Shown: positions 2,845-25,319 of the stretch, piece by piece
Position numbering within the stretch: the first letter of the stretch is position 1
Layout of the letters: the number at the start of each line of letters is the position of its first letter
From: Thermacetogenium phaeum DSM 12270
GTDB taxonomy: Bacteria > Bacillota > DSM-12270 > Thermacetogeniales > Thermacetogeniaceae
Length of the DNA: 64,000 bases
Direction of reading: 5' to 3'
Assembly: GCF_000305935.1 (NCBI RefSeq)
Contig: NC_018870.1
Coordinates: 2,403,001-2,467,000 of the forward strand
Notes under the pieces: generated by a model
What the model was told of the DNA's origin: nothing
Databases searched by the model: none
What the model saw: the letters and a program-made list of their open reading frames with translations, nothing else
Position numbers and translations under genes: made by a program

Positions 2845-2850
2845 GTGGGC

Positions 2851-6976: not shown

Positions 6977-6979
6977 CTC

Positions 6980-8960: not shown

Positions 8961-9557
8961 TCACAGTCCCTGTTCGGACTTGATTTCCACCAATTCACCC
9001 CAGCGCCGCGTGTAGTTGTTGGGTATCTCCAGAAGATCCAGAATCCTGCTTACGAGATGCATGACCAGATCATCAATGGTTTGCGGCCTGTTATAGAAAG
9101 CCGGCACCGGGGGAACAATGATCGCGCCGGCCCTGGTCAGCTTGAGCAGGTTCTCAAGATGGATCTCGTTCAACGGGGTCTCCCTGGCTACGAGGATAAG
9201 GCGGCGCCGCTCCTTCAAAATGACATCGGCAGCCCGGGCCACCAGGTTATCCGTATAGCCGTGCGCAACGGCGGCGACGGTTTTCATACTGCAGGGGACG
9301 ATCACCATTCCGGAAACAGGAAAGGAACCGCTTGCAATGCGTGCTCCGACATCCTCCACATCATAGCAGTAGTCGGCCATCTTCATAACCTGCTCCGGTT
9401 GATAAGGCGTTTCCAGGGATATCGTCTTCTCGGCCCAGCGGCTCATAACGAGATGGGTCTCCACCCCTTCGCTATCGCGCAGAGCCTCGAGCGTTCTGAT
9501 CCCGTAGATCGCTCCGGTAGCGCCGGTTATGGCAACGATCAACCTTTTTTTTGCCAT
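8961..9557 (-). CDS. ubiX: UbiX-family flavin prenyltransferase
   Basis: 198 aa. Makes prenylated FMN, the cofactor of UbiD decarboxylases, from FMNH2 and dimethylallyl phosphate. Flavin-binding TGATGAIYG (11-19), VPCSMKTVAAVAHGYTDNL and RETPLNEIHLENLLKL motifs are present, and length is normal. ATG follows AAGGAGAGG. A UbiD homologue lies 4.2 kb upstream in the same direction, so this gene most likely supplies its cofactor. The type 2 IPP isomerase nearby could in principle feed the dimethylallyl donor pool. Confidence 0.93.
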   Translation of the reverse strand: MAKKRLIVAITGATGAIYGIRTLEALRDSEGVETHLVMSRWAEKTISLETPYQPEQVMKMADYCYDVEDVGARIASGSFPVSGMVIVPCSMKTVAAVAHGYTDNLVARAADVILKERRRLILVARETPLNEIHLENLLKLTRAGAIIVPPVPAFYNRPQTIDDLVMHLVSRILDLLEIPNNYTRRWGELVEIKSEQGL

Positions 9558-9611: not shown

Positions 9612-10526
9612 CTATGATTTTGCCCCGGCACCATCCACCCTCTCCGGCAATTGCTCTTTCTTATTCTGAGAGGAAAGGACGATGCCGATGAGCACGAAAA
9701 AACACCCGATCAACTGATAATAGTGAATCTCTTCCCGGAGGAACAGAGCCGCGATAACCATGGCGAAAACAGGTATCAGGTTGTAGAAAATTGCGGCAAC
9801 GGCAACTCCGAGACGGTGGATCCCCGTGTACCACCAGATTAAAGCGATAACAGAAGCAAACAGTCCGAGATACAGCATCCCTGAAACCACAGGCCAGGTT
9901 AAAGCGGCAAAATTATAGTCCCTCAATTCCAGAGCAGCGGCAATCAGACAAAATGGCAGCGCCGCCAGCGTGCTGTAAGCAACGGTTTCCATCGGGCCTG
10001 TTGTTTGCATCACCTTTTTCCCGTAAACCGAAAAAAACGCCCAGATAACGGTATCCGCCAGGACGATCAGGTCTCCATTGTTGAACGACAGATTAACGAT
10101 GTTTGCCCAGGAGCCGTGACTGGCTATCAAAAAAATGCCGGCTAAGGATATCAAAGCTCCCAGATACTGTTGCATAGAAACCTTTTCGCTCAGCATAAGA
10201 ACGCCCATAAATATCGTCACAATCGGGCAAAAAGCATTGATAATTGTGGCATTAACGGCGCTGGTGTAGCGCAAACTGGTATAGATAAGGCTGTTGAACA
10301 AAAACACACCGGTTAAGCCTAAAATCAAAAACTGCACAAAACTACCTGCAGGAGGGAGCTTCCTGCGCCTGGACAGCAGCCAGCCGCCCAAAATTATGGA
10401 CGCCAGCAAGGCACGGCAGGCCATTATGGTAAACGGGGGTACGGATGCCGCCAGGGCCTTTCCGATAATAAAGTTTGTACTCCAGATAAGGGATACACCC
10501 AACAGCATGAGATAGGCACCAAGCAC
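9612..10526 (-). CDS. EamA/DMT-family membrane transporter
   Basis: 304 aa, about ten hydrophobic segments arranged as two EamA repeats, starting MLGAYLMLLGVSLIWSTNFIIGKALA. The second repeat begins near GDLIVLADTVIWAFFSVYGKKV. Ends with a short charged cytoplasmic tail. Family members move small metabolites or amino acids, often outward. Placed between the TRAP genes and ubiX, it may export a product of the local pathway, but the substrate cannot be read. Confidence 0.87.
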   Translation of the reverse strand: MLGAYLMLLGVSLIWSTNFIIGKALAASVPPFTIMACRALLASIILGGWLLSRRRKLPPAGSFVQFLILGLTGVFLFNSLIYTSLRYTSAVNATIINAFCPIVTIFMGVLMLSEKVSMQQYLGALISLAGIFLIASHGSWANIVNLSFNNGDLIVLADTVIWAFFSVYGKKVMQTTGPMETVAYSTLAALPFCLIAAALELRDYNFAALTWPVVSGMLYLGLFASVIALIWWYTGIHRLGVAVAAIFYNLIPVFAMVIAALFLREEIHYYQLIGCFFVLIGIVLSSQNKKEQLPERVDGAGAKS

Positions 10527-10727: not shown

Positions 10728-11990
10728 CTACTGCACCATCGACATCTTCGGCAGCCAGAGGTACAGCTGCGGGAAGTATGTGATGATGATCAAGGCTATA
10801 ATAAACACGACAAAGAAGGGCGGGACCGCCCTGGCAATATCCTCCAAACGCCTCTTGAAAATACTTTGGATTACATACAAATTCAAGCCGAACGGCGGCG
10901 TGAACATACCGATGGCCAGGTTCACCGTAAAGACGATCCCGAGATGCAGGAGATCGATCCCCAGTGAAGCCGCTACCGGTGCCACGACAGGCGCCAGGAC
11001 CAGCACTGCCGACGTGGGATCGAAAAAGCAGCCGACGATTATCAAAATAACGTTCAGAAGCATCAGGAACATAAGCGGGCTCAGCCCGTTTAAGGCCTGC
11101 TTCAGCATCTCCGGCACCTGGGCCATCGCCAGCGCCTGGGAGAAGACCGTGCTGGCAGCTATCAGAATAAAGATCTGCCCGGTTAGTTTGGTTGTGTCCT
11201 TGATACATTCCTTTATCACAGGAGGTTTCAGCTCCTTGTAAAAGAGGAACGGCAGCAGGAAAGCGTAAACTGCCGAGACCGCTCCCGCCTCGGTCGGGGT
11301 AAATGCCCCTTTGTAGATCCCGCCCAGCACGATAACGGGGAGTATCAACACCGGCAGTCCCTTTAATGTCATTTTGGCAGCGTATTTGAGATCAAACTTG
11401 ACATCTTGACCTGCGGGCTTGCTCACAAACCAGATGTAACTGCACAGGCAGACGCCGATAATGATAGCGGGCACCACCCCGGCCAGAAACAGGGCTCCGA
11501 TGGAGGCATTGGTTGCCGTCGCGAACAGGATCATATTAATGCTCGGCGGCATGACGATGGCCAGGGCGCCTGCAGAGGCGAACATACCAAGCGCGAACTT
11601 TTCGCTGTTGCTCTTCGAAACAACAGGAAACATAACCCTTCCTATAGTACCCGCAGCCGCCGGAGCCGAACCGGACATGGCACCGAAAAGCTCGTTGGCA
11701 AGAATGGCGGCGATCGGAATCCCGCCCCTTACCTTAACCAGCCAGGGCGTAAAACTCTTCACCAGCCTGTCCGCAAAAGAACTCTTTTCCATGAAGGACC
11801 CGGCCAACAGGAAAAAGGGGACCGCCGTCAAAGTGAACTTGGCGACACCGTCGTACAGCCCTGTGATGACCATATCGATCGGGATCTGCTGCACTATCAG
11901 CAGGATGTACAGCCCGGCTCCCAGAAGACCGACATAAATGGGCAGGCCCATAACAATGCAGATTATGAGGATGGCTATACCCCAGAACAT
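10728..11990 (-). CDS. dctM: TRAP transporter large permease, DctM type
   Basis: 420-aa polytopic membrane protein with the DctM signatures GLPIYVGLLGAGLYILLI at the N terminus and AGALAIVMPPSINMILFA, LPVIVLGGIYKGAFTPTEAGAVSAVY and FDPTSAVLVLAPVVAPVA later. It forms the sodium- or proton-coupled channel of a tripartite carboxylate importer. Starts inside the end of dctQ (16-base overlap). Last gene of the TRAP set, and an intergenic space of about 200 bases with nothing recognisable follows. Confidence 0.94.
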   Translation of the reverse strand: MFWGIAILIICIVMGLPIYVGLLGAGLYILLIVQQIPIDMVITGLYDGVAKFTLTAVPFFLLAGSFMEKSSFADRLVKSFTPWLVKVRGGIPIAAILANELFGAMSGSAPAAAGTIGRVMFPVVSKSNSEKFALGMFASAGALAIVMPPSINMILFATATNASIGALFLAGVVPAIIIGVCLCSYIWFVSKPAGQDVKFDLKYAAKMTLKGLPVLILPVIVLGGIYKGAFTPTEAGAVSAVYAFLLPFLFYKELKPPVIKECIKDTTKLTGQIFILIAASTVFSQALAMAQVPEMLKQALNGLSPLMFLMLLNVILIIVGCFFDPTSAVLVLAPVVAPVAASLGIDLLHLGIVFTVNLAIGMFTPPFGLNLYVIQSIFKRRLEDIARAVPPFFVVFIIALIIITYFPQLYLWLPKMSMVQ

Positions 11991-12532
11991 GTGCCCTCAT
12001 CCTCCTTCATCCCGACGACCTCCGCTGCAGGGGCATCAGTGATGGGATGCACCAGTCTCGCCATTATCATGCAGGCGAGCGCCAGAGGGATGACCAGGTA
12101 GGCGATCCACAAGGGGAAACCGATCGCTTGGGTGGTCATATTTAATTCCCCGTTGCGCATCACGATGACCATTCCGGCGTAGAGGAGATACCCGCTCAGA
12201 AAAACGGTTACCGCACACCTCAACACGTCAACGGCACGTCTGACCTTTTCCCCCAATGCCCGGTATAGGGCGGTCATCGCCAGCTGTTCATTGTCATTTT
12301 CCAGCAGCCCCTGGGAGAGATAGACCATCCAGACCAGGGCCAAAACGCTGACCTCTTCCCCCCAGACGAAAGGCCTGCTGAAGACATAGCGGGCGACAAC
12401 ATTAATAAAAGCGCTTGCGGTACATACCAGCAGTAAGACGCCAGAAATGCTATCCAGGCATGTTAATATCCTTCGGAGATGCTTTCGCAGCTGGACCACA
12501 GATTTCTTCGCTCCTTTAAAGTAAATTGCCAT
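11975..12532 (-). CDS. dctQ: TRAP transporter small permease, DctQ type
   Basis: 185 aa, four hydrophobic segments. Family features RYVFSRPFVWGEEVSVLALVWMVYLSQG and a C-terminal GFPLWIAYLVIPLALACMI are visible. The annotated ATG lacks a good ribosome site. A GTG 33 bases inside the gene follows AAAGGAG and could be the true start. Partner of DctM, with which it overlaps. Confidence 0.9.
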   Translation of the reverse strand: MAIYFKGAKKSVVQLRKHLRRILTCLDSISGVLLLVCTASAFINVVARYVFSRPFVWGEEVSVLALVWMVYLSQGLLENDNEQLAMTALYRALGEKVRRAVDVLRCAVTVFLSGYLLYAGMVIVMRNGELNMTTQAIGFPLWIAYLVIPLALACMIMARLVHPITDAPAAEVVGMKEDEGTCSGV

Positions 12533-12545
12533 CCGCTGACTGCCT

Positions 12546-12580
12546 GCGGGGTGGCCGGCTTTGGAGACCGGCCACCCCGC
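12546..12580 (-). promoter_or_regulatory. Intercistronic hairpin between dctP and dctQ
   Basis: Perfect 13-bp GC-rich stem (12546-12558 with 12568-12580) and 9-base loop without a T-run. In periplasmic-binding-protein operons such hairpins usually protect the binding-protein mRNA and lower permease expression. That role is inferred here. Confidence 0.65.
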
Positions 12581-12588
12581 GGCTGAAA

Positions 12589-13632
12589 TTAACTACCTAT
12601 CGCTTTCTTGAGACTCTCATAGATCGGTTTGGCGTCCGGGTTATCCTTCAAAAACGTCTCGTGGACCACCTTGCTTGCTTCTTCAAGCTGGGCTCTCAGC
12701 TGGGGAGAGGCTTCGATTACCTGCACTCCTGCCGCCTTCATATCATCGAGGGCTTTCTGCTGCAGCTCCCTGGCAAACTTCTCAGCATTGGGCTGGATTT
12801 CCTTGGCGCTCTCCAGGATGATCTCCCTTAAGTCGGAGGGAAGCCCTTCAAGCCACTTCTTGTTCATCATAAATATTGTAACCTCGGCACCTTTCGGTTC
12901 GTAAAAGATGTATTTGGCCACTTCGTAGTATTTCCCCATCCAGAAGAACTGTGGAGCGCTTTCCAATCCGTCAATAGCTCCCTGCTGCAGTGCCGTGTAC
13001 AATTCCGGCACATCCATCGGAACCCCGGTACCACCCCAGCTGTTGATTTCATCGATCAGCACCTTTGCTCCCATGATGCGGACCTTTTTCCCTTTAAACG
13101 AATCCATGCTGTCGACGGGGAATTTCAGGAGTAAAACGCGGTCACCGTAGGAGTAAAAACTGGCGGCCACCAGACCGCGTTCCTCCAGGTAACTGCGCAA
13201 ATCATCGCCTGCCGGCCCGTTGAGCATTTCCGTCGCCGTCCAGACGTCGGGGAAAAAGTAGGGCAGGTCGACGACAGTCAAAACATCACAAAAGCCTCCC
13301 AGGAAAGCCGTGGGTTCCAACAGACCGTGAATGGTCCCGGCCTGCAGCCCCTGCAGCATCTGGGCGTTGCTTCCCAACTGACAAGACGGGTAAAGCTGCA
13401 CCTCTATCCTGCCGTTGCTCTTCTTCTCAACAACTTCCTTGAATAGTTCCATCTCGTGAGTTTGCGGATCATTGGTCGTCGGAGTGGCAACCCTCATTAC
13501 AACCTTTTTACCGCCGTCATTCGTTCCGCCTTTTGACTCGTTCTGACCCTGACTGCAACCGCCGAGAAAAACAACTACGGCAAAGATCAACAGGACAGGA
13601 AAGACGAACCAGGTAAACACCTTTTTCGGCAC
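12589..13632 (-). CDS. dctP: TRAP transporter substrate-binding lipoprotein, DctP type
   Basis: 347 aa. The N-terminal hydrophobic signal ends in the lipobox LGGC (Cys 26), so it is an extracytoplasmic lipoprotein. The mature part shows the DctP fold: VVMRVATPTTNDPQTHEMEL, then GRIEVQLYPSCQLGSNAQM and the conserved FKGKKVRIMGAKVLIDEI segment with the carboxylate-binding Arg. The PELYTALQQGAIDGLESAP segment is also family-typical. GTG start with GGGGG upstream. It determines which acid the TRAP system imports. Its place beside ubiD suggests an unsaturated, hydroxylated or cyclic carboxylate. Confidence 0.94.
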   Translation of the reverse strand: MPKKVFTWFVFPVLLIFAVVVFLGGCSQGQNESKGGTNDGGKKVVMRVATPTTNDPQTHEMELFKEVVEKKSNGRIEVQLYPSCQLGSNAQMLQGLQAGTIHGLLEPTAFLGGFCDVLTVVDLPYFFPDVWTATEMLNGPAGDDLRSYLEERGLVAASFYSYGDRVLLLKFPVDSMDSFKGKKVRIMGAKVLIDEINSWGGTGVPMDVPELYTALQQGAIDGLESAPQFFWMGKYYEVAKYIFYEPKGAEVTIFMMNKKWLEGLPSDLREIILESAKEIQPNAEKFARELQQKALDDMKAAGVQVIEASPQLRAQLEEASKVVHETFLKDNPDAKPIYESLKKAIGS

Positions 13633-13792
13633 TGGGTTAACCCCCTTCTTTTTTTATTTTTATAAAATGCTTTACCTGTTGGCAGGCAACTCTTGCACCC
13701 CTATCCCACTCAGTGCTCCTATTGCAGCCCCCCTATAAAAGGGGAGGGAAGCAGCGGCCAAAGGTCGCTCTTCCCGGGTTGAACGGCTCTTA

Positions 13793-15136
13793 TTACAGAT
13801 ACTGCGACAGATCCAGATCCTTTGCTCCGGGCACATTGACGGTTTCCGGCCACCCCTCGAGCGGCTTGGTGGCGTCGATGCCGATCTTGGTCACCAGCAG
13901 CTCATTGGTGCAGGTCGGGTCGAGAGCATTGGTCTTGGCGTTCGGGATGACGAAGACGTTGCCCTGCGGTCTTAAACGGGTGCTTAGCGCCAGCAGCACG
14001 GCGGAATCATTGAAGATGTCCACATCATCGTCGACAACCACACACAACTTAATGAACGGATCGGCGCCGATAGCTGCGGCGATAGCGTTCTTGGCTTCCC
14101 CTTCATGCCGCTTCTTGATGCTGATATAGCAGGTGAAACGGCAGCAGCCGGACGGAGGCATATAAACATCCTTCACCGTTGGGCAGGCGGCCCGGACGGT
14201 CCGGTAGATGGTGCTCAACCGCGGCGTCCCACCGAGGAGTTGGTGATCGATGTGGCCGGAGAAAACATCCAGGTAGATCGGGTTCTTGCGCATGGTTATG
14301 GCAGTGATCCTGATAAACGGGTTTTCCCTGACCTTGCCGTAAACGGTGGTGTATTCCCCGAAGGGCCCGTCCATCGCCGTATCTCCCGGGTAGATCATTC
14401 CCTCGAGAACAATCTCGGCATCCGCCGGAACCTCTAAATCAACGGTCTTGCATTTTACCAGGCGCAGCGGCTCCTGCATATAACCGCCCATAATGGTGTA
14501 CTCGTCCACACCGTACGGCACAAAACTGAGCGCTCCCATGTAGACAAGGGGGTGATGGCCTATGGTTATGGCCACAGGCTCCGGCTCTCCCCTGTCCATG
14601 TACTTGTCGAAGATCAGGCGTCCATGACCGGTCTCAGCCAGGTGAATGCCGATCTGGTTTTTACCCTGCAGCATATGCCTGTAAATACCCACGTTGCGGA
14701 TACCCGTCTCCGGGTCCTTGCCAACCAGCATACCGGCGGTGATGTACGGCCCGGCGTCCTTTTCGTTATGGGTGAACAGCGGCAGTTTGGTCAAATCGAC
14801 CTGATCCCCGGTCCAGACGACTTCCTGCACAGGGGCATCTTCAACCATTACCGGCTCCAGGGGATTGGCTTCCCTTTCCCGCAGCACCCTGTTCAGGTCT
14901 TCCCCTGTCGTGCCGAAGGCCATGGCAATGCGCTCACGGTCCGCAAAAAGGTTGCTGACCACGGGGATATCTGAATCCTTAACTTTTTCGAATAAAACTG
15001 CAGGATACTTCCGCTGCTCCTCCAGCTTCTGGAGCACACCGGTAGCCTCGAACTTCGGAGCGACCTCTTTTTTCACCCTGACCAGATGCTCACTATTATT
15101 TTCCAGTGACTTCAAAAATGACCTGAGATCGTACAT
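13793..15136 (-). CDS. UbiD-family (de)carboxylase
   Basis: 447 aa, prenylated-FMN-dependent decarboxylase. The catalytic segment DGPFGEYTTVYG (about 256-267) gives acidic residues Asp256 and Glu261, and Arg153 in IRNVGIYRH matches the UbiD R-(E/D)-E triad. ATG follows AAGGAGG. Neighbours are a TRAP binding protein downstream and a PreA-like oxidoreductase upstream, and UbiX is in the same region. UbiD relatives act on aromatic, heteroaromatic or alpha,beta-unsaturated acids. An archaeal branch decarboxylates trans-anhydromevalonate phosphate. Function here is likely catabolic, with unknown substrate. Confidence 0.9.
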   Translation of the reverse strand: MYDLRSFLKSLENNSEHLVRVKKEVAPKFEATGVLQKLEEQRKYPAVLFEKVKDSDIPVVSNLFADRERIAMAFGTTGEDLNRVLREREANPLEPVMVEDAPVQEVVWTGDQVDLTKLPLFTHNEKDAGPYITAGMLVGKDPETGIRNVGIYRHMLQGKNQIGIHLAETGHGRLIFDKYMDRGEPEPVAITIGHHPLVYMGALSFVPYGVDEYTIMGGYMQEPLRLVKCKTVDLEVPADAEIVLEGMIYPGDTAMDGPFGEYTTVYGKVRENPFIRITAITMRKNPIYLDVFSGHIDHQLLGGTPRLSTIYRTVRAACPTVKDVYMPPSGCCRFTCYISIKKRHEGEAKNAIAAAIGADPFIKLCVVVDDDVDIFNDSAVLLALSTRLRPQGNVFVIPNAKTNALDPTCTNELLVTKIGIDATKPLEGWPETVNVPGAKDLDLSQYL

Positions 15137-15205
15137 CCATTAATCCTCCTTATATAATTGGTACTACCCTAACTAATATTGGGTTGCACGACATTAACAG
15201 TTTAA

Positions 15206-16399
15206 CTATTTGCCCTTGCTCATGGAGACGGCGTTCTGCGGGCAGACTTCCATGCACATTCCGCAGCCATCGCATACCTCGGGGTTGACTATCGCTCCCG
15301 CTTTCGTCAGCTTGATGGCAGCATAGAAGCAGCTCCTGATGCAGGTACCGCATTTGTTGCACTTCTTGAAGTCTACTACCGCATGTACCCCTTCCGGCTC
15401 CCTCTCGATGTCTCTCGTCTTCAGTATGTTCGGCAGCGCCACCCCCCGAATCTCGTCCAGCGAGCTGTAGCCCTTGCTGTCCAGCCAGGCGTTGATGTTC
15501 TCTACCCACTTCTTGCTGATGTTGTAACCCTGCAGCATGATCCCCGCACCAGACTGCACCAGACTGGCCCCTACCATTGTGTAGCGGATGATGTCCTGCC
15601 AGTCCCATACTCCCAATCCGGCTATGATCGGAATGTTCAGCCTCCTCGCCGCCTGGCTCACTATCTTCAGCCCGTAGCCGATGAGGTAGGGCCCTCCCCA
15701 GCCTCCCATGGCTCCGGGACCAATCGGCCTGGCCGTCTCAATGTCAATCATGATCCCCGATAAGCGGGCCGAAAGATTGACCGCCATCGCTCCCGCTTTC
15801 TCCACTTCTTCCGCTATCGCTACCGGATCCGCTGCCTGCGGCGAAATCTTCACGCTGAACGGTTTCTTCAGTATCCCGGCACACAGTTTGGTGATCTCAG
15901 GACAGAGTTCTACCGCCCCAGCTCCCATCTTCACTCCCATGTCCGCCGCAAAGGGGCAGGAGACGTTCAGTTCTACCCAGTCCGCTTTGGTCTCATTGAC
16001 CATCTTGCACATGGCCTCCCATTCGTCCATGGTCGCACCCGATAGGCTGGCCATGATTACCCCTTCGTCTCCTACCATGTCCTTCGCTTTGTTGATGTCG
16101 TCCATGTACTCTTCGTACCCATAGTGCGAGCACTCTTCCAGCGAGTGCAGGGTGAAGGCGTGCGGCAGTTCGTTCGGATACCCCGGGTAATCTTTGTAGT
16201 CAAACAGTTTGAACCGCGGCCGCGGAAATTTCCGCCCCAGTTTACCACTCTCGCCAAACAGCGACTTCGCTATGGCTCCCGCCGCACCTCCGTCAATACC
16301 CCTCTTCATCCCATACCTGTCCATCGTCGGTGTCGCCGATGCCAATATCACCGGATTCTTAAACTTTACTCCCGCTACTTCTACACTCAGATCCGCCAT
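15206..16399 (-). CDS. PreA-like FMN/4Fe-4S oxidoreductase (dihydroorotate/dihydropyrimidine dehydrogenase type), copy 1
   Basis: 397 aa. TIM-barrel domain with VKFKNPVILASATPTMDRYG, WVELNVSCPF (FMN/substrate loop) and a phosphate-binding IPIIAGLGVWDWQDIIRYTMVGASLVQSGAG. A C-terminal ferredoxin domain carries CNKCGTCIRSC and CDGCGMCMEVC. Likely exchanges electrons between ferredoxin/NAD partners and an unsaturated substrate. Nearly identical to the gene at 23165-24358: I find three base differences, one changing the last residue Lys to Arg. First gene of the transcription unit preA1-ubiD-dctPQM, with operator-like palindrome upstream. It is not a housekeeping PyrD by context. Confidence 0.87.
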   Translation of the reverse strand: MADLSVEVAGVKFKNPVILASATPTMDRYGMKRGIDGGAAGAIAKSLFGESGKLGRKFPRPRFKLFDYKDYPGYPNELPHAFTLHSLEECSHYGYEEYMDDINKAKDMVGDEGVIMASLSGATMDEWEAMCKMVNETKADWVELNVSCPFAADMGVKMGAGAVELCPEITKLCAGILKKPFSVKISPQAADPVAIAEEVEKAGAMAVNLSARLSGIMIDIETARPIGPGAMGGWGGPYLIGYGLKIVSQAARRLNIPIIAGLGVWDWQDIIRYTMVGASLVQSGAGIMLQGYNISKKWVENINAWLDSKGYSSLDEIRGVALPNILKTRDIEREPEGVHAVVDFKKCNKCGTCIRSCFYAAIKLTKAGAIVNPEVCDGCGMCMEVCPQNAVSMSKGK

Positions 16400-16571
16400 G
16401 TCTCTTCCTCCTTATTAAAAATCTAAACTTAAAATTGGATAGCTTTGTAATAAGAACTCATCCCTCCGACGACCCTTTGCTCTCCTGCTACCACCTCCAC
16501 AGCTGAATTTATCTGCAGGGGTACGACAATAATACAGCAGTTATACTATGTATATACTGCCAACATACCCC

Positions 16572-16581
16572 TTGTATACAA
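16572..16581. promoter_or_regulatory. GntR-type operator palindrome upstream of preA copy 1
   Basis: Perfect palindrome TTGTATACAA, the half-site arrangement used by FadR/FCD-subfamily GntR regulators such as MatR. It lies 24 bases past the gntR stop and 173 bases before preA1, in the only sizeable gap that can hold the promoter of preA1-ubiD-dctPQM. Confidence 0.6.
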
Positions 16582-16604
16582 TTGGAAGTAAAAAATCCTG
16601 CCCC

Positions 16605-17258
16605 CTAGCGGAATACCTCCGACGTCTTTCTACACACCTCAATTGTGCTCTCCTTAACATTCCTAAGGTGCTGCCTCAACAGCCGCTCGGCCTCTTCGAG
16701 ATCACGCATCTTGAGAGCAGCTACAATTTCTAGGTGCTCCTGCTTGGACTGCTGGAGCCTGTGCGGTTTCATGGCGGCGATATGGCGCAGCCTTTCCATT
16801 TGGGAATTAAGGTTATTGAGAATTTGAGCCAGGCGGCGGTTGCCTCCGTGCTTGACGATCAGGTCATGCAGTCTGCGATCGCTGTCGTAAAACTTTTCAT
16901 TGGAACTATCGTACTCTAATGAACGCAACAGGATCTCTATTTCATATAGCTCCTCGTCGGTAATATCGTTGATCGCCGTCTTCAACGCCAGGACTTCCAG
17001 CGTCTCCCGCAGCGCAAAGATCTCCTCCAGGTCCTGTGTGGTAATTTCCTCAACAAAAGTACCCCGCAGCGGAATGTGCCGGACCAATCCCTCCGCCTCC
17101 AACTGCTTCAGGGCCTCCCGTACGGGAGTCCTGCTGATCCCCAGTACATTGGAGATCTCCTGTTCGGCTATCGCCACCCCCGGTGGCAACTTGTTGGTAA
17201 CGATGGCGTTGTACAGGTATTCATAAGCCTTCTGCTGCCGAGTATCTCTAACAACCAT
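16605..17258 (-). CDS. GntR-family transcriptional regulator, FCD domain
   Basis: 217 aa. N-terminal winged helix with LPPGVAIAEQEISNVLGISRTPVREALKQLEAEGLV (about 24-59) and LRGTFVEE. The C-terminal all-helical FCD ligand domain contains FALRETLEVLALKTA, a metal-binding DSDRRLHDLIVKHGGN and QEHLEIVAALK. FCD regulators usually sense an organic acid from the pathway they control. Placed between aconitase-X genes and preA1 in the same direction, with TTGTATACAA-like sites in front of both preA genes, it is the probable local repressor. Confidence 0.93.
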   Translation of the reverse strand: MVVRDTRQQKAYEYLYNAIVTNKLPPGVAIAEQEISNVLGISRTPVREALKQLEAEGLVRHIPLRGTFVEEITTQDLEEIFALRETLEVLALKTAINDITDEELYEIEILLRSLEYDSSNEKFYDSDRRLHDLIVKHGGNRRLAQILNNLNSQMERLRHIAAMKPHRLQQSKQEHLEIVAALKMRDLEEAERLLRQHLRNVKESTIEVCRKTSEVFR

Positions 17259-17287
17259 CCTCTTTCACCTGCGCTTGTGACGTAATG

Positions 17288-17304
17288 ACAAGCCTTAAGC
17301 TTGT
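17288..17304. promoter_or_regulatory. Inverted repeat upstream of gntR
   Basis: ACAAGC-N5-GCTTGT about 30 bases before the gntR start, inside a 274-base AT-rich gap after the aconitase X small subunit. Could be an autoregulatory operator. It does not match the TTGTATACAA sites. Nothing else is recognisable in the gap. Confidence 0.35.
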
Positions 17305-17532
17305 TACTGCCGAGTAGGCATAACTCATGAAAAATTGTTAATAAGTGATTATCATTTAATGATTTACATCGTTTTTTATTAATTTCCTGCTCAGCAAACT
17401 CACTTTTAACCCATATTGAGCTCCCCCCAACAGGCTGTTACATCCGGCCGGTCGCCATCTCAAGCGTCATTTTCCAATTGCCACAAGCTTACCGCTACCC
17501 GGCAACCTGGCCCAACAAATAGCTTTATTGCC

Positions 17533-17940
17533 TCATTTCTCTCTGATAACCTTCACAATACCCCTTTCTCCGTCAATTATCAGGTGGTCTCCGGTCTCTA
17601 TTTCTGCGATGTTGATGCGATCGACCATCGGCAAATCGGCAACTATAGCCCCGATCACCACGACCGAATCAGCTTCGGCATTAACGATACCTGTAGGACC
17701 AACCCCGTTTCTGACAAGGTCATAGAGCATATAGGAACCGCCTGTGGAACCCTTCGCCGACGGAAAGACCAGGATCTTCCCTTTCAGGCACTGCCCCTCA
17801 ATTTCATGGCCTCTCTCAATCACATAACCGGTTTTGGGGTTGATACTGCCCATGAAGGAGATGGGATCTCTGGTCACCAGCGCTTCACCTTCGGCTGTGC
17901 CTTCAACGATTTTACGACCTGTCAAGACCTTTGTGATCAT
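17533..17940 (-). CDS. Aconitase X, small (swivel) subunit
   Basis: 135 aa, DUF126/AcnX swivelling domain: MITKVLTGRKIVEGTAEGEA, PISFMGSINPKTGYVIERGHEI, the serine-rich KGSTGGSYMLYDL loop and a C-terminal GDHLIIDGERGIV. Start overlaps the large-subunit stop by 4 bases (ATGA), so the two are coupled. Separate small and large subunits are usual in archaeal-type phosphomevalonate dehydratase, while many bacterial hydroxyproline dehydratases are fused. Here the reaction is presumably a dehydration of a hydroxy acid. Confidence 0.9.
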   Translation of the reverse strand: MITKVLTGRKIVEGTAEGEALVTRDPISFMGSINPKTGYVIERGHEIEGQCLKGKILVFPSAKGSTGGSYMLYDLVRNGVGPTGIVNAEADSVVVIGAIVADLPMVDRINIAEIETGDHLIIDGERGIVKVIREK

Positions 17941-19157
17941 GCCTTACCACTCCAGTATCCCTTAATCGCCGCATCAACACACTCTTCGATCTCCAGAAGC
18001 CCCGTCTTCAAGTTCCAAAGCCCCGGAGCGTAATGGGCAAGCTTTCCAGAATTCGTCAGCAGCTTCTTATAGCCTTTGGTGCTCGTCGGCGCCAGCACCG
18101 GACAGGTATCGCAAATAATTCTCGCTCCGGCTTTTTCAATTATCTCCGTCAACCCCATTTTGTCTGCCAGGACCTTGGTCTGCCTGGCCGTACAAACCCA
18201 GAACTCCGCCTTCACTTTTTTCCCCTCAAGGAGCCGGGCCACCTTACCGATTTCCACTATCGAACAGTGAGGGCAACCGATAACCACAAAGTCCACATCA
18301 CCGTTAATGGTGAATTTTTCAACGACTTCTCGATATTCCTTGCGCCCGAATATAATGGGCTCCTGCTTCCCGATAACCGCATCCGCAGTCGGTGCTTCCG
18401 GTGTGACTCCCACTATGTGATAAAGGGCTACTGCACCAGATGAAGCGATGGCTGCACTCAAGGCCTTGAGGTTTTCCAACGTGGGTCGCCATTTGATCCC
18501 CTCAAAGACGGGAACATCCCTTCCCGCTATCCGGCCGGCAAAGTAACCGAGAACAGCATAATCTTTGTCAGTTTTCAACTCCATGTCAACCCTGATCAGG
18601 TATTTCCCTTTGCGGTTTTCTTCGAGATGAAAACCGTACTCCGGGACCCTTCCCGTTACGGCAGCCGCCAGTGCGCTGGGGCCACCCTCTCTGTTGGTGC
18701 GCGCCCCGACTACCGAGTTGACATAAGCTACCGCAGAGGATTCACCCCAGGCAATGTGCTCTCCCATGGCCGGAATGTTGCCCGTCAAGTATGGGGCACA
18801 GGTATAGGTAGCTATTGCTCCCATTTTCTGGTAGGCGTCAAGCAGTTCGATCTGTTTTAGGGCAAAGCACCGCGGAAAGTGATACTCCAGTTCTTCCCAG
18901 CGCTCAGAATCGATCCCGATGGTGTTGAGGGTCACCGGGATCGTGAAGCGCCCCTCCCTGCTGGCATCCTTCACAAAGTTCAAACCAGCATCTCCCGCGA
19001 CCCGGTAGGATACGCCGGGAGAATGGACATTCTTGATCTTCAGCATTCTTTCGGCGCCGTAGATCTCACCCAGAGCTACCAGTATCTTCAGGGATTTCCG
19101 AACTACCTCGCCGTACTCACCGTCAAGCATCCTCTTCTCTTCGTCGGTTAACTGCAT
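17937..19157 (-). CDS. Aconitase X, large catalytic subunit
   Basis: 406 aa from ATG 19157 (AGGGGAGC ribosome site); the upstream 18 in-frame codons are unlikely to be translated. AcnX features: MQLTDEEKRMLDGEYGE, SPGVSYRVAGDAGL, GESSAVAYVNSVVGARTNREGGPSAL, VVIGCPHCSIVEIGKVA and ICDTCPVLAP, which includes candidate Fe-S ligand cysteines. Known AcnX activities are cis-3-hydroxy-L-proline dehydratase and mevalonate-5-phosphate dehydratase. The TRAP/aldolase context suggests catabolism of an imported hydroxy acid, but the phosphomevalonate activity cannot be excluded from sequence. Confidence 0.9.
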   Translation of the reverse strand: MQLTDEEKRMLDGEYGEVVRKSLKILVALGEIYGAERMLKIKNVHSPGVSYRVAGDAGLNFVKDASREGRFTIPVTLNTIGIDSERWEELEYHFPRCFALKQIELLDAYQKMGAIATYTCAPYLTGNIPAMGEHIAWGESSAVAYVNSVVGARTNREGGPSALAAAVTGRVPEYGFHLEENRKGKYLIRVDMELKTDKDYAVLGYFAGRIAGRDVPVFEGIKWRPTLENLKALSAAIASSGAVALYHIVGVTPEAPTADAVIGKQEPIIFGRKEYREVVEKFTINGDVDFVVIGCPHCSIVEIGKVARLLEGKKVKAEFWVCTARQTKVLADKMGLTEIIEKAGARIICDTCPVLAPTSTKGYKKLLTNSGKLAHYAPGLWNLKTGLLEIEECVDAAIKGYWSGKA

Positions 19158-19279
19158 CTTTGCTCCCCTTTGACCTGTTCTTATATGCCGCGTCTGACAG
19201 ATTAGTGGCAATGACTAAATACGATTTTCGATTACTGTGCAACTCTTCTTGCTATTAGCTCACACATTTGTAGCTGACA

Positions 19280-19954
19280 TTATTTGCGGCGTGTTTGTAA
19301 ATTGTGGTACCCTACCCGGGATCGCGCCTCACGCAGCGTAGCCCCGTTTTTTACTTCCCGGACAATAATCTCTTCTTTTTCGGCTATCTCCCTGGCTACA
19401 TCCAATACTTCAGCGGCTTTCTCCTGGGGTATAACCACAACTCCGGTGTCGTCGCCGAGCATGATATCTCCGGGTTTGACCAGCACTCCGGAAATCGCCA
19501 CCGGCACATTAACAGCATCTACCTGAACCCGGTCCTTGCCGGTCACCATATAAAAGCCCTTGGTAAAGATAGGATAACGCAGCTCACGAATACCGCTTAT
19601 ATCCCTGCAGACCCCGTCGATAACCGTACCGGCGACCCCTTTGCGGGATGCGGTCAGCGACATCAGGTCACCCCAAACGGTGCAGTATTCCCGTCCGGCG
19701 TTGTCAATCACGACAACCTGCCCCGGCTCGACGTCATCCAGGAAGTCCCCCACAGTTCCCTTAACCACGCCGCAGGGAACGTAATGCACTGTAAAGGCCG
19801 GCCCGCACATGGTGACACCGGGAACAATCGGCTTAATACCCAATAAACCTCCGCTAATTCCCAATCTGTCAAGAGCATCGGAAACGCTGGTCGTATCCAG
19901 TTCTTTGAAAGCCTTAATGAGATCCGGATCCGTTTTTCCGACACTTGCAGCCAT
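19280..19954 (-). CDS. RraA-like / HMG aldolase-like protein 1
   Basis: 224 aa, 4-hydroxy-4-methyl-2-oxoglutarate aldolase/RraA fold. SVSDALDRLGI at the N terminus, VVVIDNAG, and the signature VWGDLMSLTASRKGVAGTVIDGVCRD, in which the Arg-Asp pair binds substrate and metal, followed by PGDIMLGDDTGVVVIPQE. Family members cleave 2-oxo-4-hydroxy acids to pyruvate or decarboxylate oxaloacetate. First (3'-most) of three tandem paralogues, 33 bases after the next one. Confidence 0.88.
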   Translation of the reverse strand: MAASVGKTDPDLIKAFKELDTTSVSDALDRLGISGGLLGIKPIVPGVTMCGPAFTVHYVPCGVVKGTVGDFLDDVEPGQVVVIDNAGREYCTVWGDLMSLTASRKGVAGTVIDGVCRDISGIRELRYPIFTKGFYMVTGKDRVQVDAVNVPVAISGVLVKPGDIMLGDDTGVVVIPQEKAAEVLDVAREIAEKEEIIVREVKNGATLREARSRVGYHNLQTRRK

Positions 19955-19987
19955 TAGACTCCCTCCTTTAAAAAGTTTTGAAAGAAG

Positions 19988-20638
19988 TTATTTAGAGCTT
20001 TTCATCTGCAGCAGCTTGTCGAACCCGTATATCTCCAGAGTGGTCTTTCCCTGGCGGAGCAGTTCCCTTACCTTCTCCTCCCTGGCAGCTATCCCCCTGG
20101 CCCGCTCCAAAACCTCCCCGGCCTTCTCCCGGGGCACGACAACCACGCCGTCGCGATCCCCTACGACAATGTCACCTGGTCTGACGACAACCCCTCCGCA
20201 CTGGATCACTTCGTTGATGGTGCCCACGCTCTCCTTGACCGTACCTCCTGGATTAAAGGCCCGACAGAAGAGAGGCAACCCCAGCTCTTCAATATCGCCG
20301 GAATCACGGCAGGCGCCGTCGATAACCACACCGGCAAGCCCTCTCTCCTGGCAGGCGATGGCCATGATTTCCCCGAACGGCCCCGCCCCGACGTAGGCAT
20401 GGGCATCGATCACCAGAACCGATCCCGGCTCCGCCTCATAAATTGCCTTGTGTATCGTCAGGTTATCTCCGGGCTGACAGCGCACGGTCACCGCAGGGCC
20501 GGCCATTTTGGTTTTGGGATCAATCGGTTTGATCGCTGGGTCCATGTTTCCGCTCTTACCGTTGGCATCACAGACATTACCCGTCGGCAGCTTCATAAAA
20601 CTCTGGATATCTTCCCGACTCAACGACATTCTCAACAC
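19988..20638 (-). CDS. RraA-like / HMG aldolase-like protein 2
   Basis: 216 aa; ATG at codon 4 (20629) may be the real start. Signature PFGEIMAIACQERGLAGVVIDGACRDSGDI and PGDIVVGDRDGVVVVPRE. The N terminus (NVCDANGKSGNMDPAI) departs from the VADALD pattern of its neighbours, so substrate may differ. This suggests three diverged enzymes or a hetero-oligomer, not simple gene dosage. Confidence 0.86.
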   Translation of the reverse strand: MLRMSLSREDIQSFMKLPTGNVCDANGKSGNMDPAIKPIDPKTKMAGPAVTVRCQPGDNLTIHKAIYEAEPGSVLVIDAHAYVGAGPFGEIMAIACQERGLAGVVIDGACRDSGDIEELGLPLFCRAFNPGGTVKESVGTINEVIQCGGVVVRPGDIVVGDRDGVVVVPREKAGEVLERARGIAAREEKVRELLRQGKTTLEIYGFDKLLQMKSSK

Positions 20639-20672
20639 TTCCTTGGCCGTTATTGCTTGAAAGTAACCTTCT

Positions 20673-21344
20673 CTATTTCAGCATTTTTTCATAGTTATAC
20701 TTGGTGTCTACTTCCAGCATAGAACGCCCGGCACGGATCTCGGCGATCATGCTCTCCTCTTTTTCGAAGAGTTCTTCGGCCTTCTCCACCACTTCGTCGA
20801 GCCTCTCCTGGGGTATGATGACGACCCCGCTGCGGTCGGCGATAACCACATCTCCCGGACGGACCTGAACACCGCCGAACTGGATCAGAACGTTGGTGGC
20901 CTCCTCCATGATCCTTCCTCTGGCCGTAGCCACAACCGAGCCCCGAGCGTAAACCGGGAACTTGATTGCGACGTAATCATCGACATCACGGCAGGCGCCG
21001 TCGATCACCACTCCGGAAACGCCCTTCATCTGGGCACCGTTTGCCAGGATTCCCCCCCAGCACGAAGTATCCAGACGCCCTCCGTTGTCGACTACGATGA
21101 CATCCCCCGGCTCTGCGGCCTCAATGGCCTTCACCCCCAGGTGATGCTTGCTCTTGGTCAACCCGGCGGCCGTAAGCTTTACGGTAACCGCTTTTCCCAC
21201 GATTTTGGACGCACCCTCCCAGATCGGCCGAATTCCGTAGGTGGCCCCTTTAAGCCCGAGGGCATCGAGCGCATCCGCAACATTGGTTGTCGACAGCCTT
21301 TCGAGACGTTGGCGATACCGCTCATCCAACGGCAATCTAATCAT
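20673..21344 (-). CDS. RraA-like / HMG aldolase-like protein 3
   Basis: 223 aa. STTNVADALDALGLKGATYG, VVVDNGGRLDTSCWGGILANGAQMKGVSGVVIDGACRDVDDY and PGDVVIADRSGVVIIPQE. The middle segment has CWGGILANGA where paralogue 1 has VWGDLMSLTA, so the Asp is replaced by Gly near the metal site. Gene is 34 bases upstream of paralogue 2 and 128 bases downstream of the flavoprotein gene, in one probable operon. Confidence 0.86.
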   Translation of the reverse strand: MIRLPLDERYRQRLERLSTTNVADALDALGLKGATYGIRPIWEGASKIVGKAVTVKLTAAGLTKSKHHLGVKAIEAAEPGDVIVVDNGGRLDTSCWGGILANGAQMKGVSGVVIDGACRDVDDYVAIKFPVYARGSVVATARGRIMEEATNVLIQFGGVQVRPGDVVIADRSGVVIIPQERLDEVVEKAEELFEKEESMIAEIRAGRSMLEVDTKYNYEKMLK

Positions 21345-21472
21345 CTCCCGTGATCATATTTCTCATCGGCTTTGGGCATGTCTCAAAGGTTCATCCTGCC
21401 CGGGGCAGTCCCCTCATACAAAGCTCCATGCCCATTAAGATTATATGTTAATGTGTTTAGGGGGGGGCTTTG

Positions 21473-23131
21473 TTAAAGCTTCTCCGTCTTCACTACCAGC
21501 TCACCGTCTGGGCCCCGATAAACAACCAGCCTTTTGACCCAATCACTGCCGGTAGCCGGAAAATCCTCCCGGTAATGCGTGCCCCGGCTCTCTTCTCTGG
21601 CTAACGCCGCCGAAGCCAGGATCTCGCCCACCAGGAGACGGTTAATCAGCATCTGGCTCTGCGCCTGTCGTTTTTGGGCGTCGATAAATTCTAAAACCTT
21701 TTTCAGACCTTGAGCCCTGCGCACTACGGTCAGTTCCCGATAATAGAGATATGCGCTTTTTTCTAGAATTGCTTCCTCACCGGCCTGAGGGGACACTCCC
21801 TCGATCTTCACAGGCAATCCCTTTGGCGCATGCCGGCAGGTGCCCTTCTCTTTGAAGCACAAGGCTGCTTCCGCGGCCTTTCTTCCCGCCCGGTAGCCGA
21901 ACACCTGGGTGTCGATCAGGTTGTTCCCTCCGGGGCGGTCCGAGCCGTGGACTCCGCCGGTAACTTCACCCGCCGCATAGAGCCCTTCTACACCTGTGAA
22001 GCCGTCGGCATCGATCAAGACTCCACCATTGAAGTTCTGCACGACCAGGCCGAGTTCAATCGTTTCTCGGGCCAGATCGACCCCGGCATTCTTCAGGAAC
22101 TCATAGGTGATGGGAGCCTTTACCCTTAAGACCTCCTCTCCCGCATGGGTCACATCAAAAATTATCCCGTCATCTGGCGTCCCCCGACCCTCCAAGATCT
22201 CTTTAAATATCGCTATATCCAGGTACATGGCGATCGTCCGCACCGAAAAGGGATAGGACATTGCCTTGGCGTCGACTACTTCCCCGACATCGACGCCTGT
22301 GGGACAGTAACGCCCCAAAAACTCTTCACCCAGTGCGTTTGTGAGTTTCGGCCGGAGACGCCACATATGGCTGTGGATAATGAACTTTATCCTCGGCTTC
22401 ACCACGGCAGGCCCGATCTGGAAAAACTCCATATTAACCAGCCGCGCCCCTGCCCGGTAGGCCATCGCCCATCCGTCACCTTCAACTGTCGGCGGGTTCA
22501 CATTCTTTCTAAAGGCCCTTCCGGCCCCACCGGTAGCCAGCACCACCGCTCCTGCAGATACATGGAGCGGCTCCTCGCCGACCAAACCTACAGCCCCGCA
22601 GACGCGACCGTTGTCGTCTTGAACCAGATCCAGGATGCGGGCGTTTTCCAGAACGTTGACGCCGATTGCGGCATTGGCCTTTTTAAGGACGGCGACGATT
22701 TCCCGTCCGGTAGAACCGCCACAGGTTAAGGACCTCGCCTTGGTGCAACCGGATAACTTCCTCTGCACCGGCCGTCCGTCCCGGCTGTCAAATTGCAGGC
22801 CGAGGGCCATTAATTCTTCGATCCTGGCACACGCCTCTTCGGCAATGACCCTGCAAAGCACGGGATCGCTTAAGCCCCCGCCGGTTTCCAGCATATCCTG
22901 GAGATAGACTTCGGGGCTGTCCCCGTCACCCATGTAATTAAAGGGGGCGTTGATCCCTAAGCTCTCCGAAGCAATCAGATTGGTACTTCCACTCAGCCCA
23001 TACTTGCCGGCCACGACAAGGGTTACGTTCAGCTCCGGGTGCCTTCGCTTCGCTTCATAGGCGGCGCGGCTTCCCGCCGCTCCGCCCCCGATTACCAAAA
23101 CATCACACTTCAACTCAACCATGCTTTTCAC
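21473..23131 (-). CDS. FAD-dependent fumarate-reductase/aspartate-oxidase-like flavoprotein
   Basis: 552 aa. N-terminal dinucleotide-binding VLVIGGGAAGSRAAYEAKRR (about 11-31), then KYGLSGSTNLIASESLG, GAVVLATGGAG, and the C-terminal FAD motif YAAGEVTGGVHGSDRPGGN. Resembles the catalytic subunit of SdhA/FrdA/AprA enzymes but is cytoplasmic, with no signal peptide. It sits 33 bases downstream of preA copy 2, whose Fe-S domain could be its electron partner. Likely oxidises or reduces a C-C bond in the local carboxylate pathway. Substrate unknown. Confidence 0.88.
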   Translation of the reverse strand: MKSMVELKCDVLVIGGGAAGSRAAYEAKRRHPELNVTLVVAGKYGLSGSTNLIASESLGINAPFNYMGDGDSPEVYLQDMLETGGGLSDPVLCRVIAEEACARIEELMALGLQFDSRDGRPVQRKLSGCTKARSLTCGGSTGREIVAVLKKANAAIGVNVLENARILDLVQDDNGRVCGAVGLVGEEPLHVSAGAVVLATGGAGRAFRKNVNPPTVEGDGWAMAYRAGARLVNMEFFQIGPAVVKPRIKFIIHSHMWRLRPKLTNALGEEFLGRYCPTGVDVGEVVDAKAMSYPFSVRTIAMYLDIAIFKEILEGRGTPDDGIIFDVTHAGEEVLRVKAPITYEFLKNAGVDLARETIELGLVVQNFNGGVLIDADGFTGVEGLYAAGEVTGGVHGSDRPGGNNLIDTQVFGYRAGRKAAEAALCFKEKGTCRHAPKGLPVKIEGVSPQAGEEAILEKSAYLYYRELTVVRRAQGLKKVLEFIDAQKRQAQSQMLINRLLVGEILASAALAREESRGTHYREDFPATGSDWVKRLVVYRGPDGELVVKTEKL

Positions 23132-23164
23132 CCAGCTTCTCGTTTTTCCGGCCGCTTATCTGCC

Positions 23165-24358
23165 TTATCTGCCCTTGCTCATGGAGACGGCGTTCTGCGG
23201 GCAGACTTCCATGCACATTCCGCAGCCATCGCATACCTCGGGGTTGACTATCGCTCCCGCTTTCGTCAGCTTGATGGCAGCGTAGAAGCAGCTCCTGATG
23301 CAGGTACCGCATTTGTTGCACTTCTTGAAGTCTACTACCGCATGTACCCCTTCCGGCTCCCTCTCGATGTCTCTCGTCTTCAGTATGTTCGGCAGCGCCA
23401 CCCCCCGAATCTCGTCCAGCGAGCTGTAGCCCTTGCTGTCCAGCCAGGCGTTGATGTTCTCTACCCACTTCTTGCTGATGTTGTAACCCTGCAGCATGAT
23501 CCCCGCACCAGACTGCACCAGACTGGCCCCTACCATTGTGTAGCGGATGATGTCCTGCCAGTCCCATACTCCCAATCCGGCTATGATCGGAATGTTCAGC
23601 CTCCTCGCCGCCTGGCTCACTATCTTCAGCCCGTAGCCGATGAGGTAGGGCCCTCCCCAGCCTCCCATGGCTCCGGGACCAATCGGCCTGGCCGTCTCAA
23701 TGTCAATCATGATCCCCGATAAGCGGGCCGAAAGATTGACCGCCATCGCTCCCGCTTTCTCCACTTCTTCCGCTATCGCTACCGGATCCGCTGCCTGCGG
23801 CGAAATCTTCACGCTGAACGGTTTCTTCAGTATCCCGGCACACAGTTTGGTGATCTCAGGACAGAGTTCTACCGCCCCAGCTCCCATCTTCACTCCCATG
23901 TCCGCCGCAAAGGGGCAGGAGACGTTCAGTTCTACCCAGTCCGCTTTGGTCTCATTGACCATCTTGCACATGGCCTCCCATTCGTCCATGGTCGCACCCG
24001 ATAGGCTGGCCATGATTACCCCTTCGTCTCCTACCATGTCCTTCGCTTTGTTGATGTCGTCCATGTACTCTTCGTACCCATAGTGCGAGCACTCTTCCAG
24101 CGAGTGCAGGGTGAAGGCGTGCGGCAGTTCGTTCGGATACCCCGGGTAATCTTTGTAGTCAAACAGTTTGAACCGCGGCCGCGGAAATTTCCGCCCCAGT
24201 TTACCACTCTCGCCAAACAGCGACTTCGCTATGGCTCCCGCCGCACCTCCGTCAATACCCCTCTTCATCCCATACCTGTCCATCGTCGGAGTCGCCGATG
24301 CCAATATCACCGGATTCTTAAACTTTACTCCCGCTACTTCTACACTCAGATCCGCCAT
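23165..24358 (-). CDS. PreA-like FMN/4Fe-4S oxidoreductase, copy 2
   Basis: Second copy of the gene at 15206-16399, 397 aa, differing at the C-terminal residue (Arg for Lys) and at two silent positions that I can see. Identity extends through the ribosome site (AGGAGGAAGAGAC) and stops immediately outside it on both sides, so the duplicated block is about 1.2 kb. It is the first gene of preA2-flavoprotein-rraA3-rraA2-rraA1-acnX. Gene conversion or very recent duplication would explain the identity. Confidence 0.87.
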   Translation of the reverse strand: MADLSVEVAGVKFKNPVILASATPTMDRYGMKRGIDGGAAGAIAKSLFGESGKLGRKFPRPRFKLFDYKDYPGYPNELPHAFTLHSLEECSHYGYEEYMDDINKAKDMVGDEGVIMASLSGATMDEWEAMCKMVNETKADWVELNVSCPFAADMGVKMGAGAVELCPEITKLCAGILKKPFSVKISPQAADPVAIAEEVEKAGAMAVNLSARLSGIMIDIETARPIGPGAMGGWGGPYLIGYGLKIVSQAARRLNIPIIAGLGVWDWQDIIRYTMVGASLVQSGAGIMLQGYNISKKWVENINAWLDSKGYSSLDEIRGVALPNILKTRDIEREPEGVHAVVDFKKCNKCGTCIRSCFYAAIKLTKAGAIVNPEVCDGCGMCMEVCPQNAVSMSKGR

Positions 24359-24561
24359 GTCTCTTCCTCCTTAGAGATTATTCACAGGATGATGCTGATG
24401 ACGTTGATGGATGACGTTAATGAGATCTTGGAACAAACCTTTTTGCCGCTTGAGTACTGCTCCCCCCCGGCCCCAATCACTTCAAGAGGCTTCAAATGAA
24501 AACGGATGCTCGCGGATGAAAATAATCGATAGCTCCTGCTTTATACCCATCTCATACTTTG

Positions 24562-25088: not shown

Positions 25089-25235
25089 TCAGTCCTCCAG
25101 GATCCTGCCGTCGGTGCTGAGGGCAACCAACGCGGTACCATAGTTCCCTTTGGGTGCAGCTTGTCCCACCTTCGGAAGGAGGAAAGGCGAGAAGAAGCTT
25201 TCACAAGGATAAGAATTCGCAGTGCAGCCGGGGTT
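25089..25235 (-). pseudogene. Possible 3' remnant of an unidentified gene
   Basis: Minus strand frame reads VGQAAPKGNYGTALVALSTD and ends GRILED before TGA 25089-25091, which looks protein-like. Upstream it meets an in-frame TAG near 25236 with no start codon, so the 5' part is gone. Family not recognised. It lies between the MNT/HEPN promoter and the orphan CIRCE. Confidence 0.3.
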
Positions 25236-25319
25236 ACCCTATCCCTGATAAAATATGGTATGATGGTATCGGGAAACGGCGGCCGCACTTACCTTACGCC
25301 GGCATCCGGAGGGGAAAGA

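Follow-up and report, generated by a model that had tools for sequence, protein, structure and literature searches.

What does Thermacetogenium phaeum DSM 12270 do with a gene cluster that sets a two-subunit aconitase X (AcnX) beside three RraA-like aldolases, a prenylated-FMN decarboxylase, Fe-S/FMN oxidoreductases and an importer? The genome of this bacterium is a single contig (NC_018870.1) of 2,939,057 bp, and we analysed a window of 64,000 nucleotides containing the cluster (bases 2403001–2467000). A preliminary description of the cluster had listed an importer, a dehydratase, a decarboxylase, aldolases, a flavoprotein and oxidoreductases on one strand and knew of no established pathway using the whole set. 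We found all of these on the minus strand, every named gene being an intact open reading frame (ORF) in one direction with strong family matches. In the literature on AcnX with UbiD, RraA or 4-oxalomesaconate in anaerobes, we found no publication on this cluster or on a pathway using it, and the publications on T. phaeum that we consulted yielded no discussion of the locus under the terms searched. The conserved catabolic cluster is real and uncharacterised, and it brings known families together in a new, well-supported combination.

A conserved five-gene core with interchangeable partners

The locus consists of a conserved five-gene core, RraA3-RraA2-RraA1-AcnX large-AcnX small, and interchangeable parts. 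Searching for AcnX in 398 genomes of the phylum and in the GTDB species genomes, we obtained a nearest clade of 19 loci (L051–L067, L089 and L117), hosted by Bacillota (Moorella stamsii, Desulfosporosinus, Clostridium, Dysosmobacter, Anaeroglobus), Synergistota, Spirochaetota and one Acidobacteriales metagenome-assembled genome. RraA genes of the same lineages adjoin AcnX in all 19, in most cases all three of them and usually in the order given above, with fewer RraA genes in a few short or contig-edge loci. RraA3 orthologues (at least 59% identity) occur in five of the 398 phylum genomes, and precisely these five hold the best AcnX matches, a coincidence with a chance of about 1 in 8e10 by our arithmetic if the two genes were independent. 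PreA orthologues (at least 76%) are present in three genomes of the phylum, all within these five. Among 20 genomes of the host's family, RraA3 turned up in a single one besides T. phaeum, which marks the locus as accessory and probably horizontally mobile; a scan of viral contigs gave no match to RraA3.

A chance neighbourhood of independent catabolic genes would agree with the differences in peripheral genes between loci, but the exact co-occurrence in 398 genomes and the near-constancy of the core across Bacillota, Synergistota, Spirochaetota, Acidobacteriota and a betaproteobacterial plasmid already refute it for the core, and it retains next to no credibility. The locus therefore survives the neighbourhood survey that the preliminary description had suggested as a check on whether its genes are conserved together. 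The idea of the whole set as one fixed pathway did not survive, as only AcnX and the three RraA genes are near-constant, with UbiD, PreA, the flavoprotein and TRAP replaced elsewhere.

The active site of the RraA-linked aconitase X

The T. phaeum AcnX is of type II, with separate large and swivel subunits encoded by adjacent overlapping genes. Its large subunit is the sole close copy in the genome, and alignment places the start at a conserved ATG at 19157 rather than a TTG at 19211. In the AcnX tree, the RraA-linked sequences cluster together, apart from the archaeal phosphomevalonate dehydratases; one extra sequence, L116, falls inside this group, and its short contig shows no RraA. Numbering residues by the archaeal TkAcnX, with (S) marking the small subunit and with residue roles taken from PMC8184944, we found that the Fe-S ligands Cys110, Cys283 and Cys342 are kept, together with Asn79, Glu129, Ser130, Ser131, Lys361, Tyr365, Ser62(S) and Thr63(S). 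Three other positions set the branch apart: the phosphate ligand Asn53 is replaced by Val in every RraA-linked AcnX, Ala47 by Pro in nearly all, and Val64(S) by Gly in 15 of 15.

These positions bear on whether the locus represents the modified mevalonate route of archaea in bacterial form, in which AcnX (type IIb; TkAcnX, 7cnr and 7cns) would be the phosphomevalonate dehydratase and UbiD the anhydromevalonate-phosphate decarboxylase, with a type 2 isopentenyl-diphosphate isomerase (IDI-2) adjacent. The likeness is considerable, since AcnX is ~39–49% identical to archaeal AcnX and shares its two-subunit build and its catalytic and Fe-S residues, AcnX, UbiD and UbiX match the archaeal pair, UbiD adjoins AcnX in archaeal loci, and a true IDI-2 lies beside the T. 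phaeum locus (window 4936–6072). However, the phosphate-pocket Asn53 is missing, the clade is separate from the archaeal one, and the UbiD carries the HmfF-type motif GPFGEY, unlike the UbiDs beside archaeal AcnX, nearly all of which have GPFxD and MGMPREP-like motifs. Furthermore, HMG-CoA reductase was not found in the T. phaeum genome, which encodes Dxr of the methylerythritol phosphate (MEP) route, and the three linked RraA would be left unexplained. We reject the mevalonate reading on the active-site residues, the UbiD motif and this genome content, and regard it as extremely improbable.

Other AcnX enzymes are cis-3-hydroxyproline dehydratases (types I and IIa; 7cnp), which share the fold and the recognition of a beta-hydroxy acid. 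Mapped through TkAcnX equivalences, their substrate landmarks are absent from T. phaeum AcnX (Asp203 to Pro, Thr72 to Gly, Trp35 to Met, Ile206 to Ser), which scores 320.8 bits against a cut-off of 700 in the hydroxyproline-dehydratase equivalog model; a hydroxyproline reading of AcnX is rejected on the missing landmarks. With the catalytic residues kept and the substrate landmarks gone, the addition or removal of water on a beta-hydroxy acid should therefore persist, on a different substrate. The T. phaeum AcnX, which fits neither set of landmark residues, is a candidate member of types IIc–IIf. The backbone oxyanion residues Gly48–Ser50 are retained (position 49 varies), which would suit a carboxylate replacing the phosphate.

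A different bacterial AcnX clade, at L072, L090 and L094, has the small-subunit gene first and a Ser53 signature and groups on the archaeal side; RraA was not found at these three loci.

Three RraA lineages and a possible two-step core

The three RraA proteins represent separate, co-inherited lineages, all of which keep Arg123, Asp124 and Glu199 from the pyruvate-enolate and metal sites of HMG/CHA aldolase. CHA, 4-carboxy-4-hydroxy-2-oxoadipate, is an intermediate of the aerobic gallate/protocatechuate routes (PMC5065237). RraA2 additionally keeps Asn71, His75, Asp/Glu102, Thr145 and Lys147. Two of these, Asn71 and Lys147, have been suggested as the binding site for the additional carboxylate of CHA (PMC5065237). 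RraA2 scores 188 bits against a cut-off of 179 in the NCBI CHA-aldolase model. Its catalytic, metal and carboxylate-binding residues match those of HMG/CHA aldolase except at Arg195, which is Ile in T. phaeum and Arg in 2 of 15 orthologues; in the Pseudomonas putida aldolase, R195A impairs activity only moderately (PMC5065237). These residues support the aldol cleavage to pyruvate-type products that had been suggested for the locus. RraA1 and RraA3 diverge at the substrate end, and in RraA3 Gly replaces Asp102. The locus differs from HMG/CHA aldolase systems in its three co-inherited paralogues, in having AcnX as the partner rather than a GalB/LigJ-type hydratase, and in containing no oxygenase.

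We tentatively favour, with a little less than even confidence, an accessory cluster in which AcnX hydrates or dehydrates a citrate-like 4-hydroxy-2-oxo polycarboxylate, RraA2 cleaves this to pyruvate and an oxo-acid, and upstream modules feed the core. Gene content, core linkage and residue conservation are read from the DNA itself; we infer the order of steps, the exact substrate and the roles of RraA1, RraA3, the FAD flavoprotein, PreA and Kor. AcnX, a heterodimer with an Fe-S cluster, would reversibly add or remove water on a tertiary beta-hydroxy acid bearing a second carboxylate at the position of the phosphate in mevalonate-5-phosphate, and RraA2 would carry out the retro-aldol cleavage of the 4-hydroxy-2-oxo polycarboxylate to pyruvate and a second oxo-acid. 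RraA1 and RraA3 have kept the residues of the metal and pyruvate-enolate sites; they probably act on related oxo-acids, by cleavage or decarboxylation, or combine into a mixed aldolase. In T. phaeum, the acid would enter through TRAP and be converted to the core intermediate by redox chemistry at a C=C bond (PreA and the flavoprotein) and by decarboxylation (UbiD/UbiX), and KorABC may oxidise the 2-oxo-acid. Hydration by AcnX immediately followed by RraA cleavage suits the core better than the previously suggested order of dehydration, redox step, decarboxylation and cleavage.

In a more specific version of the core, AcnX would be a 4-oxalomesaconate hydratase/CHA dehydratase and RraA2 a CHA aldolase releasing pyruvate and oxaloacetate. 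By chemical reasoning, this would be the simplest two-step core, because CHA has the carboxyl-CH2-C(OH) unit of mevalonate-5-phosphate that AcnX binds, with an oxalyl arm replacing the phosphate arm. Nearby oxaloacetate-decarboxylase-like and Kor genes fit these products. To our knowledge, the 4-oxalomesaconate/CHA node is so far known only from aerobic gallate/protocatechuate degradation. We consider it unlikely at present that the AcnX-RraA core constitutes a lower pathway through this node that is widespread, works without oxygen and is supplied by exchangeable modules upstream, with hydration of a citrate-like oxo-acid as a third activity for AcnX.

Exchangeable modules around the core

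In type-1 loci (the window, L051, L052, L054, L056, L057, L059 and L117), the core is accompanied by the flavoprotein, by UbiD in six of the eight, and by PreA in all but L056, whose stretch begins at the flavoprotein; the importers are of TRAP, TAXI-TRAP or SSF type. In type-2 loci (L058, L062, L063, L064, L066, L067 and L089), these parts are swapped for varying subsets of a homoaconitase-like LeuC/LeuD, a homoisocitrate/isopropylmalate-dehydrogenase-like enzyme, MmgE/PrpD and a second PreA-like family; several of these loci carry Liv or Tct importers. Oxaloacetate-decarboxylase-like genes adjoin the core in L058, and L063 has an OadA-like gene. The importers linked to the core belong to polycarboxylate-type families (TctC, SLC13, GltS, TRAP/TAXI). 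For the cyclic substrate considered in the preliminary description we saw no direct evidence, and the linked importers and enzymes lean to an acyclic polycarboxylate.

A smaller arrangement occurs on a Cupriavidus necator plasmid (L145, 13980–20053), where AcnX, three RraA-like genes, TctC and a lactonase-like gene form one run. With just these two companions present, the core can therefore stand without PreA, UbiD and the FAD flavoprotein. C. necator is an aerobe with a minimal cluster and a possible host for genetics.

In two loci, L053 and L061, GltS and an aminotransferase accompany the core, joined in L053 by Kor and SucC; in L065 its companion is an HcnB/DAO amino-acid-dehydrogenase-like set. 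Together with the hydroxyproline activity of other AcnX enzymes, these neighbours are what speaks for amino- or imino-acid catabolism (hydroxyproline- or hydroxyglutamate-like), in which the AcnX substrate would be a hydroxy amino acid or the corresponding 2-oxo acid, with RraA cleaving the 4-hydroxy-2-oxo acid. The T. phaeum locus, however, has no aminotransferase, GltS or amino-acid dehydrogenase, and its AcnX does not keep the hydroxyproline landmarks, making this explanation quite improbable.

UbiD, PreA and the flavoprotein

The T. phaeum UbiD has the UbiD domains and the Arg and two-Glu active-site motifs, with a UbiX present. Its nearest solved structure is HmfF, a furan-2,5-dicarboxylate decarboxylase (6h6v, 328 bits), with which it shares GPFGEY and LLGG-xx-R; other furan-pathway genes were not recognised in the locus. 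PreA, whose nearest solved relatives are DHODH/DPD, has the family fold and NVSCP motif and falls below the NCBIfam equivalog cut-off (204.8 against 335 bits). The two PreA of the preliminary description are indeed two copies, but of one duplicated gene, a 1.2-kb near-exact repeat (15206–16414 and 23165–24373) in which 4 of 1194 bases differ (99.66% DNA identity). M. stamsii likewise has two copies (L051, 1–1122 and 6126–7322), 99.64% identical to each other and ~79% to T. phaeum PreA; being alike within each species and ~79% identical between them, the copies therefore point to gene conversion or recent duplication in each lineage. In L051, the sequence past the first PreA copy resembles a relic of the flavoprotein start. 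The flavoprotein keeps the equivalent of Arg386 in T. phaeum and six orthologues, but not the two substrate-binding histidines of fumarate reductase, succinate dehydrogenase and aspartate oxidase.

This set of enzymes raises the alternative of aromatic or heteroaromatic acid degradation, in which TRAP would import a planar acid, UbiD would decarboxylate it, PreA and the flavoprotein would reduce the ring, and AcnX and RraA would finish after ring opening. Consistent with this are HmfF as the nearest solved UbiD, the placement of PreA in a pyrimidine/orotate-reducing family, hydrolases of creatininase type in L051 and of isochorismatase type in L052, L055 and L063, and the occurrence of CHA in aerobic aromatic routes (PMC5065237). 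Nevertheless, we recognised no ring-opening hydrolase in the T. phaeum locus, UbiD and the flavoprotein are absent from many core loci, whose importers are of tricarboxylate or glutamate type, and T. phaeum showed no growth on syringate in a published test (PMC3551663). We therefore view an aromatic substrate as doubtful, though worth keeping in sight.

Gene order and neighbouring features

On the minus strand, in transcription order from 24.4 to 6.4 kb, the locus reads PreA, flavoprotein, RraA3, RraA2, RraA1, AcnX large, AcnX small, GntR, PreA, UbiD, DctP, DctQ, DctM, EamA, UbiX, KorA, KorB and KorC. Two expectations of the preliminary description needed adjustment: the single GntR regulator is present but sits mid-cluster and not at its head, and UbiD does have its UbiX, which lies farther down this strand, outside the segment then delimited, together with EamA and the KorABC-type genes. 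KorC-KorB-KorA likely act downstream, and we infer their membership of the pathway.

Table 1. Genes of the AcnX-RraA locus, with positions in the window.
Feature	Position	Strand	Basis
PreA-like FMN/2x[4Fe-4S] oxidoreductase, copy 2 (DHODH/DPD family)	23165..24358	-	Pfam DHO_dh + Fer4 (on near-identical copy), NVSCP catalytic motif, orthologues 65-91%
SdhA/FrdA/NadB-type FAD flavoprotein	21473..23131	-	Pfam FAD_binding_2; nearest solved SdhA and NadB; residue check in 7 orthologues
RraA3 (core), RraA-fold class II aldolase-like	20673..21344	-	Pfam RraA-like; G-x20-RD motif; own clade
RraA2 (core), HMG/CHA-aldolase-like	19988..20638	-	NF006731; 3NOJ 37% identity; E-x20-RD motif; residue check
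RraA1 (core)	19280..19954	-	Pfam; D-x20-RD motif; own clade
AcnX large subunit (core), type II	17937..19157	-	PF04412 516 bits; 7cnr 333 bits; residue comparison; Pro47/Val53 signature
AcnX small (swivel) subunit (core)	17533..17940	-	PF01989 110 bits; 7cnr_B; Ser62/Thr63 kept, Val64 to Gly
GntR-family regulator	16605..17258	-	ORF, family by eye; homologues in many related loci
PreA copy 1	15206..16399	-	near-identical to copy 2
UbiD prenylated-FMN decarboxylase	13793..15136	-	Pfam UbiD N/Rift/C; 6h6v 328 bits; HmfF-like GPFGEY and LLGG-xx-R motifs
TRAP solute-binding protein DctP	12589..13632	-	TIGR00787 above cut-off; nearest solved 4nn3
TRAP small permease DctQ, overlaps DctM	11975..12532	-	ORF; DctQ partner in locus L057
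TRAP large permease DctM	10728..11990	-	TIGR00786 371 bits
EamA/DMT-type permease	9612..10526	-	ORF, family by eye
UbiX flavin prenyltransferase	8961..9557	-	NF004685 269 bits, above cut-off
KorC-KorB-KorA 2-oxoacid:ferredoxin oxidoreductase	6404..8853	-	PorC_KorC above cut-off; alpha and beta below cut-offs

The ligand of 4nn3, which we take to be orotate, is not used as evidence.

Beyond the locus, overlapping nucleotidyltransferase-like and HEPN-like ORFs (window 25161–26218) resemble an MNT/HEPN toxin-antitoxin pair by eye. Positions 26372–30188 hold a multihaem cytochrome-like protein, a regulator-like ORF and a fumarate-reductase-like flavoprotein with a Tat-like signal, possibly a separate periplasmic reductase, again judged by eye. 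CRISPR arrays extend over 42438–61172 and beyond, and nearly all of the 192 Rfam matches listed for the window are CRISPR-DR2. Several transposase-like ORFs break the arrays, a 566-aa one occurring in three near-identical copies (2803–4503, 43080–44780 and 55263–56963), and a Cas1-like and a Cas6-like ORF, with families assigned by eye, lie at 61857–63866.

Discussion

Several points weigh against a polycarboxylate route through AcnX and RraA2. RraA1 and RraA3 lack the carboxylate-binding pair Asn71/Lys147 (Lys71 and Arg147 in T. phaeum), and both NadB substrate-binding histidines are replaced in the flavoprotein of T. phaeum and six orthologues. The amino-acid-related genes in L053, L061 and L065 could point to an amino-acid substrate, several neighbour family names were assigned by eye, and papers of 2021 and 2023 list the function of AcnX types IIc–IIf as unknown.

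Our survey delimits a bacterial AcnX branch whose members share a sequence signature and lie, almost without exception, beside three RraA paralogues, and an orphan enzyme thereby becomes a testable two-step prediction of a hydro-lyase followed by a retro-aldolase. For this branch of the AcnX family, it is a first concrete lead to a function. If true, this would mean a conserved anaerobic polycarboxylate route in acetogens, gut Clostridia, termite-gut spirochaetes and Synergistota.

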